Positions 10,408 to 44,108 of a DNA stretch of 64,000 bases are shown here, in pieces; position 1 is the stretch's first letter; each line of letters begins with the position of its first letter. A program made the translations under genes and the position numbers. The stretch lies in assembly GCA_949841355.1 (NCBI GenBank), contig CATKZP010000005.1, forward strand, positions 1 to 64,000. Direction: 5' to 3'. This DNA is from an uncultured Oscillospiraceae bacterium. Lineage in GTDB: Bacteria; Bacillota; Clostridia; Oscillospirales; Oscillospiraceae. Under the pieces are notes generated by a model. That model was not told the origin of the DNA, searched no databases, and was given only the letters and a program-made list of their open reading frames with translations.

Positions 10408-10420
10408 ATTGCCGCCTCCT

Positions 10421-10513
10421 CTCACAGCAGAATAACTCCCGCCTCTTTACACGCCTCGATGGTGCGCGGGTCCCAGATGGAGGCCTACACCTCACCGATA
10501 TGGGCCTTGTTCC
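10421..10513 (-). pseudogene. Duplicated 3' tail of asnA (non-coding remnant)
   Basis: These 93 bases match the last ~30 codons of asnA (10646-10738) at an offset of 225, with about eight substitutions. One of them creates an in-frame TAG (GAG GTG TAG GCC), so the copy is not coding. Its terminal CTGCTGTGA is followed directly by the AGGAGG of the small membrane gene, which looks like the ancestral gene junction. Confidence 0.85.
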
Positions 10514-10645
10514 CCATGGGCAAAGCCCACGGGGGCCCCTTTGGATTTGACTTGCGCGGCGGGAATGAATCCCGCCTTGCGCCGAGATTTTGCCTGGGGC
10601 AAAATACTCGTGCGCCGCACCTGCGGCGGTGGGCAAGGCCCATAT
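10514..10645 (-). repeat. Hairpin-rich intergenic element between two asnA tails
   Basis: 132 bases read on minus as a chain of small stems: CCGCCGCAGGTGCGGCGC, then ATTTTGCC / GGCAAAAT, then GGCGGGA / TCCCGCC, then GGGCCCCCGTGGGC-type stems. The order and several core words (ATTTTGC..GCAAAATCT.G.CGCA.GGCG.ATTCA) match the element found twice after the malic enzyme gene at 43177-43560, so this is a dispersed repeat family. Confidence 0.7.
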
Positions 10646-10646
10646 C

Positions 10647-11660
10647 TCACAGCAGAATAACCCCCGCCTCTTTACATGCCTCAATAGTGCGCGGGTCCCA
10701 GATGGAGGCCTGTACCTCGCCAATATGGGCCTTGCCCAGCAGGTACATGGATACCCGGCTCTGCCCGATGCCGCCGCCGATGGTGAGGGGGAGCTCCCCC
10801 GCCAACAGGGCCTTGTGGAAGGACAGCGTGCGGCGCTCGTCGTGCCCGGATATGGACAGCTGCTGGTCCAGGGACTCCGGCGACACCCGGATGCCCATGG
10901 ACGAGATCTCGAAGGACCGGCCCAGCAGGTGGTTCCACAGCAGGATGTCCCCGTTGAGCGCCCAGTCGTCGTAGTCCGGGGCCCGGCCGTCGTGGGGCTG
11001 GCCCGACTTCAGCGCCCCGCCGATGCCCATGAGGAAGGTGGTGGGGTGCTCCCGCGTCCAGGCGTCCTCCCGCTCCTTGGGGGACAGCTGGGGCCAGAGG
11101 TCCTCCAGCTCCTGGGCGGTGACAAAGGACACCTCCCGGCGGATGAGGGGCAGGGTGGTGAGCTGGGGGTACACCGAGCGCAGGGTGGCCTGGGTATTGG
11201 CCAGGGCGTTGACGATGGTGGACACCACGCCCTTTAAGTACTCCGCCGTGCGGTCTCTGGGGGCGATGACCTTTTCCCAGTCCCACTGGTCCACGTAGAC
11301 GGAGTGGAGATTGTCCAGCTCCTCGTCCCGGCGGATGGCGTTCATGTCGGTATACAAGCCCTCCCCCACCGAGAACTGGTAACGGTGCAGGGCCATGCGC
11401 TTCCACTTGGCCAGGGAGTGGACCACCTGGGCGTCCCGTCCGGCGTCGGGCACGTCGAAGGAGACGGCCCGCTCCACGCCGTTGAGGTCGTCGTTCAGTC
11501 CGGTGGACGCCTCCACGAACAGGGGGGCGGACACCCGGCGCAGGTTCAGCGCCCCGCCCAGGTCGTCCTCAAACAGCCGCTTCAAAAGGCCGATGGCCTT
11601 CTGGGTGTCGTACAGGTTGAGCAGGGGGGCGTACCCCTGGGGGATGACGGTGGTTAGCAT
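10647..11660 (-). CDS. asnA: Aspartate--ammonia ligase AsnA
   Basis: A 337-residue class II synthetase-fold enzyme that makes asparagine from aspartate, ammonia and ATP. Hallmarks include the N-terminal SAPLFVEASTGLNDDLNGVER, KWKRMALHRYQF, and the C-terminal ATP-site block LTIGGGIGQSRVSMYLLGKAHIGE. Length matches the family (~330). Start ATG 11660 follows AAAGGAG, and a TTGCAT-17-TATAAT promoter lies upstream. The last ~30 codons are repeated, in degenerate form, 225 bases downstream. Confidence 0.96.
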   Translation of the reverse strand: MLTTVIPQGYAPLLNLYDTQKAIGLLKRLFEDDLGGALNLRRVSAPLFVEASTGLNDDLNGVERAVSFDVPDAGRDAQVVHSLAKWKRMALHRYQFSVGEGLYTDMNAIRRDEELDNLHSVYVDQWDWEKVIAPRDRTAEYLKGVVSTIVNALANTQATLRSVYPQLTTLPLIRREVSFVTAQELEDLWPQLSPKEREDAWTREHPTTFLMGIGGALKSGQPHDGRAPDYDDWALNGDILLWNHLLGRSFEISSMGIRVSPESLDQQLSISGHDERRTLSFHKALLAGELPLTIGGGIGQSRVSMYLLGKAHIGEVQASIWDPRTIEACKEAGVILL

Positions 11661-42008: not shown

Positions 42009-43187
42009 GTGGATTACGCGGCAGAATCGTTAAGGCTCCACTACCAATGGCGGGGTAAGCTGGACACCGTGCCCAAAATGGAGGTTAAGGACCGTCAGGC
42101 GCTGTCCCTGGCCTACACCCCCGGGGTGGCCCAGCCCTGCCTGGAAATTCAGCGGGACGTGAGCAAGAGCTATGAGCTCACCGGGCGGTGGAACACCGTG
42201 GCGGTGGTCACCGACGGCACGGCGGTGCTGGGTCTGGGGGACATCGGCCCCGAGGCGGGTATGCCGGTGATGGAGGGCAAGTGCGTGCTGTTTAAGGCCT
42301 TCGGCGGGGTGAACGCCGTGCCGCTGTGTGTGCGTTCCAAGGACGTGGATGAGATCGTCAACACCGTGTCGCTGCTGGCGGGGTCCTTTGGCGGGGTGAA
42401 TCTGGAGGATATCTCCGCCCCCCGGTGCTTTGAAATTGAGCGCAGGCTGAAGCAGCGCTGCGATATCCCCGTGTTCCACGACGATCAGCACGGCACTGCC
42501 ATCATCGTGGCGGCGGCGCTGCACAACGCGCTGAAGCTGGTGGGCAAGCGGCTGGAGGACGTGAAGCTGGCAATGTCCGGGGCCGGAGCGGCGGGGACGG
42601 CGATTTTTAAGCTGCTGTGGTCTATGGGGCTGCGCCGGGCGGTGCTTTGCGATGTGAAGGGGATTGTCTATCCCGGCCGGCCCGGCCTGGAGGAGGACCC
42701 CGCCCTGGCCGAGCTGGCGGACATGACGCGGCCGGAGGTTACCCAAGGGGGGCTGGCGGCGGCTATGCGGGGGGCGGACGTGTTCATCGGAGTGTCCGCG
42801 CCGGGCATCGTCACCCAGGATATGGTGCGCTCCATGGCGGACAATCCGGTGCTGTTTCCCATGGCCAACCCCACGCCAGAGATTATGCCCGATCTGGCAA
42901 GGGCCGCCGGGGCGGCGGTGGTGGGCACCGGCCGCAGCGACTTTCCTAACCAGATCAACAACGTGCTGGCCTTTCCCGGGGTGTTCCGGGGTGCCTTCGA
43001 CGTGCGGGCGTCGGAGATCAACGAGGAGATGAAGCACGCCGCTGTCCGGGCGCTGGCGGAGCTGGTGGGGGAGGATGAGCTCTCCCCGGAGTACATCATT
43101 CCCGCCGCTTTTGACCCCCGAGTGTGCCCGGCGGTGGCGAAAGCGGTGGGCCAAGCGGCGAGAGCCACCGGGGCGGCGCGGGCGTGA
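42009..43187 (+). CDS. NAD(P)-dependent malic enzyme
   Basis: 392 residues, bacterial short-type malic enzyme (oxaloacetate-decarboxylating): SLAYTPGVAQPCLEI, VTDGTAVLGLGDIGPEAGMPVMEGK, FHDDQHGTAIIVAAALHNAL (metal Asp pair), the Rossmann GAGAAGTAI, and ANPTPEIMPDLA and GRSDFPNQINNVLAFPG. Start is GTG 42009. It makes pyruvate and NAD(P)H from malate. The last codons (CPAVAKAVGQAARATGAA) belong to a 50-bp stretch that is present three times downstream; the distal copy reads on in the same register to GAARI-stop, which is probably the original end of this gene. Confidence 0.95.
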   Translation: MDYAAESLRLHYQWRGKLDTVPKMEVKDRQALSLAYTPGVAQPCLEIQRDVSKSYELTGRWNTVAVVTDGTAVLGLGDIGPEAGMPVMEGKCVLFKAFGGVNAVPLCVRSKDVDEIVNTVSLLAGSFGGVNLEDISAPRCFEIERRLKQRCDIPVFHDDQHGTAIIVAAALHNALKLVGKRLEDVKLAMSGAGAAGTAIFKLLWSMGLRRAVLCDVKGIVYPGRPGLEEDPALAELADMTRPEVTQGGLAAAMRGADVFIGVSAPGIVTQDMVRSMADNPVLFPMANPTPEIMPDLARAAGAAVVGTGRSDFPNQINNVLAFPGVFRGAFDVRASEINEEMKHAAVRALAELVGEDELSPEYIIPAAFDPRVCPAVAKAVGQAARATGAARA

Positions 43188-43620
43188 ACGAAAGAACCGA
43201 GGGCACACCCGGGGCCCCGCGAAGCGGGGCGCGCGTAAGCGCGAACAAGCATTTTGCGCAGCAAAATCTTGCCGCAGGGCGAATTCAGTTCGCCCGAGGA
43301 AGAAAATACGGGGTCCCCGCAAGGCGCAGCCTTGTGGGGCGTGTCCGGCGGTGGCGAAAGCGGTGGGCCAAGCGGCGAGAGATACCGGGGCGGCGCGGGC
43401 GTGAGCGAAAGAACCGGGGCACACCCGGGACCCCGCGAAGCGGGGCGCGCATAAGCGCGAACAAGCATTTTGCGCAGCAAAATCTTGCCGCAGGGCGAAT
43501 TTAGTTCGCCCGAGGAAGAAAATACAGGGTCCCCGCAAGGCGCAGCCTTGTGGGGCGTGCCCGGCGGTGGCGAAAGCGGTGGGCCAAGCGGCGAGAGCCA
43601 CCGGGGCGGCAAGGATCTGA
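43127..43620 (+). repeat. Tandem array: three malic-enzyme tails separated by two element copies
   Basis: A 50-bp tail starting CCGGCGGTGGCGAAAGCGGT occurs at 43127-43176, 43345-43394 and 43561-43610. Between the tails are two nearly identical elements of 168 and 166 bp (43177-43344, 43395-43560) made of hairpins: GGGCCCCGCGAAGCGGGGC, GCGCGTAAGCGCG, ATTTTGCGCAGCAAAAT, GGGCGAATTCAGTTCGCCC, and CCCCGCAAGGC/GCCTTGTGGGG. The elements differ at roughly ten positions. Frames through this block encode only repeated hairpin sequence, so no protein is called. Confidence 0.93.
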
Positions 43621-43646: not shown

Positions 43647-44108
43647 ATGGCGGCTATATGCGGAGCAGACTGCGGCAGCTGCGGGATGAGAGAACGGTGC
43701 AGAGGATGCGCGGAGACGGAAGGACGTCCCTTTGGGGACGAGTGCGTGGTCTACAAGTGCTATAAGGGCGGAGGAGAAAAGTCGTTTTACCAGTATAAAA
43801 ACCAGCTGATTGAGGAATTCAATGCCCTGGATATTCCGGATATGCCCCAGATCACCGAGCTGTTCCCGTTAAATGGGGCTTATATCAATCTGGAGTATAA
43901 GCTGGAGAACGGCCAGCGGATCAAGCTGCTGCGGGACAGCGATATCTACCTGGGCTGCCAGGTGGAGAAGCCCGGCAGTGACCGGTGCTACGGCCTGTCC
44001 GCCGACAGCGGCCATTTGGTGGTATGCGAGTACGGATGCGGGGGCAGCGATCCACAGATCGTCATTTACAAGAGAAGACAGCCCCAGGCCGATGGACCTT
44101 CGGCATGA
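43647..44108 (+). CDS. DUF3795 domain protein
   Basis: 153 residues. The N-terminus has the Cys pattern CGADCGSCGMRERCRGCAETEG then CVVYKC (split around residues 5-40), matching DUF3795, a small probable zinc-binding domain, followed by a region EFNALDIPDMPQITELFPLNGAYINLEY. No function is known. The ATG at 43647 follows AGGAGGG. It lies directly after the distal tail copy of the malic enzyme gene and ends at a hairpin shared with spoIIP. Confidence 0.8.
   Translation: MAAICGADCGSCGMRERCRGCAETEGRPFGDECVVYKCYKGGGEKSFYQYKNQLIEEFNALDIPDMPQITELFPLNGAYINLEYKLENGQRIKLLRDSDIYLGCQVEKPGSDRCYGLSADSGHLVVCEYGCGGSDPQIVIYKRRQPQADGPSA

Follow-up and report, generated by a model that had tools for sequence, protein, structure and literature searches.

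The short and long interspersed elements (SINEs and LINEs) of eukaryotes are retroposons with a fixed 3′ end, 5′ truncation and a target duplication that can be long, and target-primed reverse transcription of elements without long terminal repeats (non-LTR elements) leaves a fixed 3′ end, 5′ truncation and a duplicate. For small palindromic repeats, the usual explanation is DNA transposition accompanied by short duplications. In the excerpt of PMC12337344 used here, the bacterial G2L4 reverse transcriptase (RT), a group II intron-like enzyme, folds a 3′ end back and copies upstream sequence. The present study concerns a stretch of 64,000 nucleotides from an uncultured Oscillospiraceae bacterium (contig CATKZP010000005.1 of assembly GCA_949841355.1; hereafter the window), in which a malic enzyme gene is followed by two copies of a non-coding, hairpin-rich element, here termed E, alternating with copies of the gene's own tail. 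The long gene-end duplicate at E loci, together with an inverted copy of the target sequence and a stepwise 5′ truncation, calls for a different insertion mechanism. We consider it reasonably probable that E is a mobile element of Oscillospiraceae, structured and non-autonomous, the insertion of which duplicates a gene end and usually leaves the inverted target copy.

Element E and the marks at its loci

By BLAST with one unit as the query, a family-wide search already suggested in an earlier note on the window for its 168-bp unit, E was matched in 98 of 400 Oscillospiraceae genomes and 39 of 106 genera. A covariance model built from 20 E copies has five main hairpins; 93.1% of cells pair in the seed alignment, and 65 cells are changed on both sides compared with 20 in shuffles. 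Among 125 model-fitted matches (117 distinct), the fit of which leans towards the structure, both partners vary in 38 of 39 pairs, in 816 cells versus 208 when shuffled. The first E copy of the window, taken with its edges (43180–43345), folds better than 200 of 200 shuffles (z −3.8). The window's genome has 11 model matches at an E-value of ≤1, eight of them at ≤4.1e-13, including that at 10510–10644, and nine other genomes, selected because they were either complete or rich in E, have 7 to 58 each; under stricter filters, the model matched two of 199 genomes across the phylum, the window's own and one congener. An exact pattern recovered 47 stretches in genome contigs, a longer exact pattern none, and the named carriers among the 47 are Flavonifractor, Pseudoflavonifractor, Intestinimonas, Oscillibacter, Dysosmobacter and two Candidatus genera, the others being unnamed Oscillospiraceae and a few labelled only Clostridiales, Eubacteriales or uncultured bacterium. 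Viral contigs gave no match in a weak test of two exact patterns; three ‘phage’ records are linear unverified scaffolds, and one Pusillibacter faecalis plasmid has a partial match. At the E locus, no Rfam family exceeded its gathering score, all matches being sub-threshold, and only a tRNA was found in the window, ruling out a known structured RNA family; a simple tandem repeat at one gene was ruled out by the genome-wide occurrence of E. Our searches, which covered the open-access PMC literature, gave no description of E, and one may exist elsewhere. In the window's genus, E also occurs with a different third hairpin, of the AAATTCGGAG type; the genes concerned (L039, L040 and L098; L and G numbers are our handles for loci and genomes) have canonical E copies in other genera. 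A GC-rich tandem repeat with hairpins (~105 bp; L042, G000:C6:49605-49755 and flanks), also in the window's genome, has a weak score under the E model and seems to represent a different family.

Gene-end duplication was assessed at 100 E loci of seven other genomes, chosen by hand from the best model matches listed and leaving out G427, G125, most of G074 and a few G307 loci. A direct repeat scored above the 99th percentile (18.2) of 595 swapped pairs in 86 of these loci, with some swapped pairs of the same gene reaching 51 in this control, and the second tail starts −13 to +6 nt from the 3′ end of E in 83. The gene body lies on the 5′ side of E in 81 of the 83 by a rough open reading frame (ORF) rule; classified by hand, the duplicates are gene 3′ ends in the sense of E in 64, gene 5′ ends with E antisense to the gene in 14, and unclear in five. 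In the 83 loci, the junction lies 72.5, 83 and 91.5 nt (quartiles) from E. A second set comprised those of the 47 named loci, 36 in all, that had sufficient flank, and partly overlaps species or loci already seen; a repeat was found in 29 of these at the score threshold of the first set and in 28 above the second set's own 99th percentile of 31.8. Flanking repeats of gene 3′ ends, which the earlier note had proposed to look for at E insertions elsewhere, were thus found at most loci, some of the duplicates being gene 5′ ends, and, rather than mostly lacking flanking tails, E fails the adjacency rule at only 17 of the 100 loci. At least three of these 17 (L104, L126 and L169) do show a repeat that the rule missed, and at seven (L143, L146, L149, L153, L159, L185 and L202) E neighbours a tRNA gene of the opposite strand, versus none of 11 tailed loci tested. 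The tail-less E copies next to tRNA genes carry a terminator-like hairpin where P5, the last hairpin, should be. At another locus (L151, probably uvrB), the tail attached to the gene has a frameshift when compared with the second copy, and the gene may run on into E.

At the 5′ junction of E, ~8–17 nt around the tail start (S) usually recur as an inverted copy (S′). An S′ score of ≥8 was obtained in 65 of 83 loci versus 7.7% of 809 swapped controls, ≥10 in 55 versus 0.5%, and ≥11 in 47 versus none; in the second set, S′ reached ≥9 in 24 of 29 loci versus 1.8% of 223 controls. The loops of the 58 loci of the first set with S′ ≥9 measure 66–75 nt in 37, 29–36 nt in seven and 53 to 116 nt in the other 14, and those of the second set 67–74 nt (18 loci) or 30–41 nt (six); the search space limits long loops and does not impose loop clusters. 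Among the 58, the start of S lies 3–7 nt upstream of the junction in 42, which means that the template of S′ was the uninterrupted gene. The 3′ end of E (P5, …TGTGGGG) is fixed, whereas its 5′ truncation is stepwise at hairpin borders, before P3, P2 or P1: among the 42 of 58 loci with a locatable P3, the distance from the end of S′ to P3 is 2–9 nt (seven loci), 13–22 nt (17), 30–43 nt (17) or 78 nt (one). S′ begins −1 to 28 nt past the stop codon in 39 of 46 loci, and the gene context of the junction from −2 to +1 is G (59 of 83), A/T (55), G (52) and G (42).

Empty sites, the malic enzyme array and spread

E with its duplicate is the derived, inserted state at two sites, as indicated by relatives with a single tail on the same flank. 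At asnA, the second E locus of the window (Table 1), one tail is joined directly to the same flank in nine of the 29 relatives' loci read from 40 other genomes with a match; G402 carries E, and most of the remaining relatives have another flank and are uninformative. At a gene of G307 that we take to be a DUF711 gene, the site is bare in 13 of 19 relatives, one relative (G439) retains only the 5′ part of E without a second tail, and the other five carry other sequences. Insertions other than E, with a new ribosome-site leader, are found between DUF711 and its upstream gene in four relatives (L288, L294, L296 and L301).

The array that the earlier note had described, three gene tails separated by two hairpin-rich elements, was recovered at 43124–43610; the two elements measure 163 and 162 bp instead of 166–168 bp, a difference of edge placement only. 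Of the 54-bp tails, copies 1 and 3 are identical and copy 2 differs at three positions, and GTGTGCCC at the tail start recurs inverted as GGGCACAC at the 5′ side of both E copies (43201–43208 and 43417–43424). Also as described, the malic enzyme ORF ends in GCG CGG GCG TGA, and the distal tail continues in register to GCA AGG ATC TGA. The distal tail looks like the ancestral gene end, as that note had proposed, since most of the E-free relatives have a malic enzyme closing with a comparable (A/V)R(I/V/A)-stop, and since the second tail of G427 runs into the same downstream gene. G427 has a single tail–E–tail unit, so the second unit of the window is probably a tandem duplicate of one insertion; the proposal that each element arrived with, or generated, a tail repeat is supported by the empty sites at the two loci above, and two separate arrivals in the window are improbable. 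The tails of the window look homogenised, copies 1 and 3 being identical and the tails of G427 being alike yet different from those of the window. At the same gene, G410 has tail–E–tail plus an E remnant, G415 has gene–S′–E and no second tail, and G351 and G247 have E remnants. No E was present in the 330 nt examined at the other 24 of 29 relatives' loci, where the neighbours differ, and an empty site sharing the downstream flank of the window was not found among the 29 loci read.

Table 1. Positions of the duplicated gene ends, E copies and inverted marks in the window
Feature	Position	Strand	Evidence or remark
Malic enzyme gene, 3′ end being the duplicated tail	42009..43187	+	ORF; Pfam malic and Malic_M
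S, target sequence at tail start, GTGTGCCC	43122..43129	+	
Tail copy 1, within gene	43124..43177	+	Exact match to copy 3
E copy 1 (E1), 163 bp	43178..43340	+	Covariance-model match 43210-43341, E-value 7.2e-37
S′ of E1, inverted copy of S, loop 71 nt	43201..43208	+	
Tail copy 2	43341..43394	+	3 mismatches
E copy 2 (E2), 162 bp	43395..43556	+	Covariance-model match 43426-43557, E-value 7.2e-36
S′ of E2	43417..43424	+	
Tail copy 3, running on to native stop, probable ancestral gene end	43557..43610	+	
Next gene, same neighbour in G427	43647..44108	+	No Pfam match
asnA gene end, functional tail copy, second E locus	10645..10734	-	Pfam AsnA
E at asnA	10510..10644	-	Covariance-model match, E-value 1.3e-22; S′ 10634-10644
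Second copy of asnA end, joined to ancestral flank	10420..10509	-	8 differences, one nonsense TAG

The nearest relative of an E copy lies in the same genome in 42 of 97 cases (expected 18.2; maximum 32 in 2000 permutations), the mean likeness being 61% between genomes and 63% within. E copies at the same gene across genomes (16 pairs, in our own groupings) are 53–74% alike, and a gene that is presumably fhs, this and other such names being our assumption from peptide ends, is hit at the same nucleotide in three genera (L037, L184 and L200). The excess of nearest relatives within genomes, together with the same genes being hit in different genera, points to E moving within genomes and reusing the same targets recurrently, and exchange between E copies could play a part as well. 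An old shared insertion at orthologous genes was considered and lowered, such E copies not being consistently more alike than others.

A proposed insertion mechanism and its rivals

We propose that a G(A/T)↓GG-like site (S) within the gene would receive the fixed 3′ end of E, and that the 5′ end of E would be joined typically ~80 bp away (~43 bp in a minority), usually just past the stop codon. The DNA between the two joins would be duplicated, the gene thus being kept whole, and 8–17 nt of S would be copied backwards at the 5′ junction, giving the order S–loop–S′–E–S. As the fixed 3′ end, the 5′ truncation and the duplicate fit target-primed reverse transcription, primed copying of an E RNA is the preferred route: an RNA copy of E may be extended from the nicked 3′ end of the target, and the polymerase may halt at the hairpins of E, snap back on the target strand to make S′ and then jump to the opposite end of a long staggered break. 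This route, with its enzyme and RNA step, is put forward tentatively, at somewhat less than even chances, and slightly more caution is due to the wider reading of E as a SINE-like retroelement of bacteria, possibly the first, with an RT acting in trans, ruler loops of ~35 or ~70 nt, snap-back and a preference for coding ends, the duplication of which would leave the host gene unharmed. Arrays of the window type may arise by unequal recombination between tails, which could also homogenise or remove units.

Several observations weigh against the mobile element that we favour, or against its proposed route. Besides the 17 of 100 loci failing the adjacent-tail rule, S′ was not found at a score of ≥8 in 18 of 83 loci, and the two DUF711 copies have different leaders. 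No enzyme was tied to E, searches for RVT_1 and Y1 giving no consistent partner. RVT_1 exceeded the cut-off in 11 of 13 E-bearing versus two of nine E-free genomes (p 0.007; the genomes are not a random sample); G160, with 16 E copies, has no RVT_1 over the cut-off, and the RTs differ in type. The repeat also ends ≤2 nt from the stop codon in 28 of the 64 sense loci (14 of the 23 most alike, 17 of which lie within −4 to +3) and at the start codon in several antisense loci, a match to gene borders that the proposed mechanism does not predict. Selection for keeping the gene whole explains this coincidence in part, though not its precision, and a link to translation or abundant mRNAs is possible.

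The main rival, to which we give about one chance in four, dispenses with RNA: E would move as single-stranded hairpin DNA or by template switching during replication, through fork stalling and microhomology-primed synthesis, S′ being a quasi-palindrome copy made by a DNA polymerase. DNA polymerases can make all the marks, the first E copy folds far better than shuffles, and the junction context resembles the GTGGGG end of E itself, as microhomology priming would give. Against this rival, a Y1 (HUH) transposase was not matched by Y1_Tnp in the window's own draft genome (94.6% complete) or in three other E-bearing genomes, four of the 13 in all; it is present in the other nine and in three of nine E-free genomes. 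Random fork errors would leave the spread of one conserved element, its fixed 3′ end and its preferred loops unexplained.

Far less probable is allelic replacement, in which homologous recombination would have brought in a foreign E-bearing gene end, the first tail being foreign and the second native, a situation known from endonuclease elements of fungal mitochondria. Homology often stopping at the gene border and the different leaders of the DUF711 copies agree with this, as does the excess of tail differences at third codon positions (180/1419, 12.7%) over first (41/1383, 3.0%) and second ones (56/1395, 4.0%). This pattern initially hinted at two functional alleles, and mutation bias with constraint on the live copy can also give it by our estimate. 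All eight asnA differences are, however, transitions, lie on both copies (judged by eye against relatives) and are mostly G/C to A/T, the nonsense codon sits in the dead copy, and differences are spread nearly evenly along the tail, without the gradient expected of a crossover. Taken seriously at first for the codon-position bias, allelic replacement was judged less likely to be the principal cause after the asnA comparison. We regard as about the least probable reading that E is immobile, a selected regulatory structure of the 3′ untranslated region with S–S′ pairing as a switch and tails from local tandem duplication. The strong covariation, the tracking of S by S′ in sequence (asnA, G000 versus G402) and the G–U pairing of S′ at one gene (L027 and L039) would suit such a structure, whereas the insertion polymorphism seen from the empty sites, the existence of copies antisense to genes or next to tRNA genes, 5′ truncation and nearest relatives at unrelated loci would not.

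E among known mobile elements

Miniature inverted-repeat transposable elements (MITEs) and small palindromic repeats such as ERIC, RUP and Correia are, in the excerpt of PMC10969869 used here, like E in being short, non-coding, presumably non-autonomous and hairpin-forming, mostly intergenic and present in many copies, some at gene 3′ ends. The alignments gave no terminal inverted repeats of E's own, the terminal pair S′/S being derived from the target, and, unlike the short target duplication of MITEs, the flanking duplicate of E extends over tens to more than 100 bp; E further differs in the inverted target copy and the stepwise 5′ truncation. REPINs, moved by RAYT (Y1) transposases, resemble E as hairpin-forming replicative units spread between genes, judging from the available part of PMC3116915; in contrast to the symmetrical repeat doublet described there, E has a long target duplicate and S′, and a host Y1 transposase was not matched in the window's genome.

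Mobile ORF elements of fungal mitochondria also show the order gene tail–element–second tail with the host gene intact, but, according to the portion of PMC3630166 consulted, they encode endonucleases and are linked to gene transfer, while E is non-coding and fits local duplication better; the E segments between tails, at 81–182 bp, are too short for a homing endonuclease ORF. The G2L4 RT performs the snap-back that S′ would need, but it is a repair enzyme not known, within the same part of PMC12337344, to mobilise elements. E belongs to a known broad kind, the short non-autonomous hairpin element, with an insertion signature that matches no family tested. It shows how an element can insert at gene ends without breaking genes, and the direct repeats left behind could give loci a variable copy number. 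The many natural insertions also serve as readable footprints of the reaction, since S′ preserves a record of the target sequence. E shares with SINE and LINE retroposons the fixed 3′ end, the 5′ truncation and the target duplication, and differs from them in having no A-tail, an inverted target copy at preferred distances, a bacterial host and no enzyme tied to it. The insertion mechanism that its marks call for may be the equivalent, in commensal gut bacteria, of SINE retroposition.
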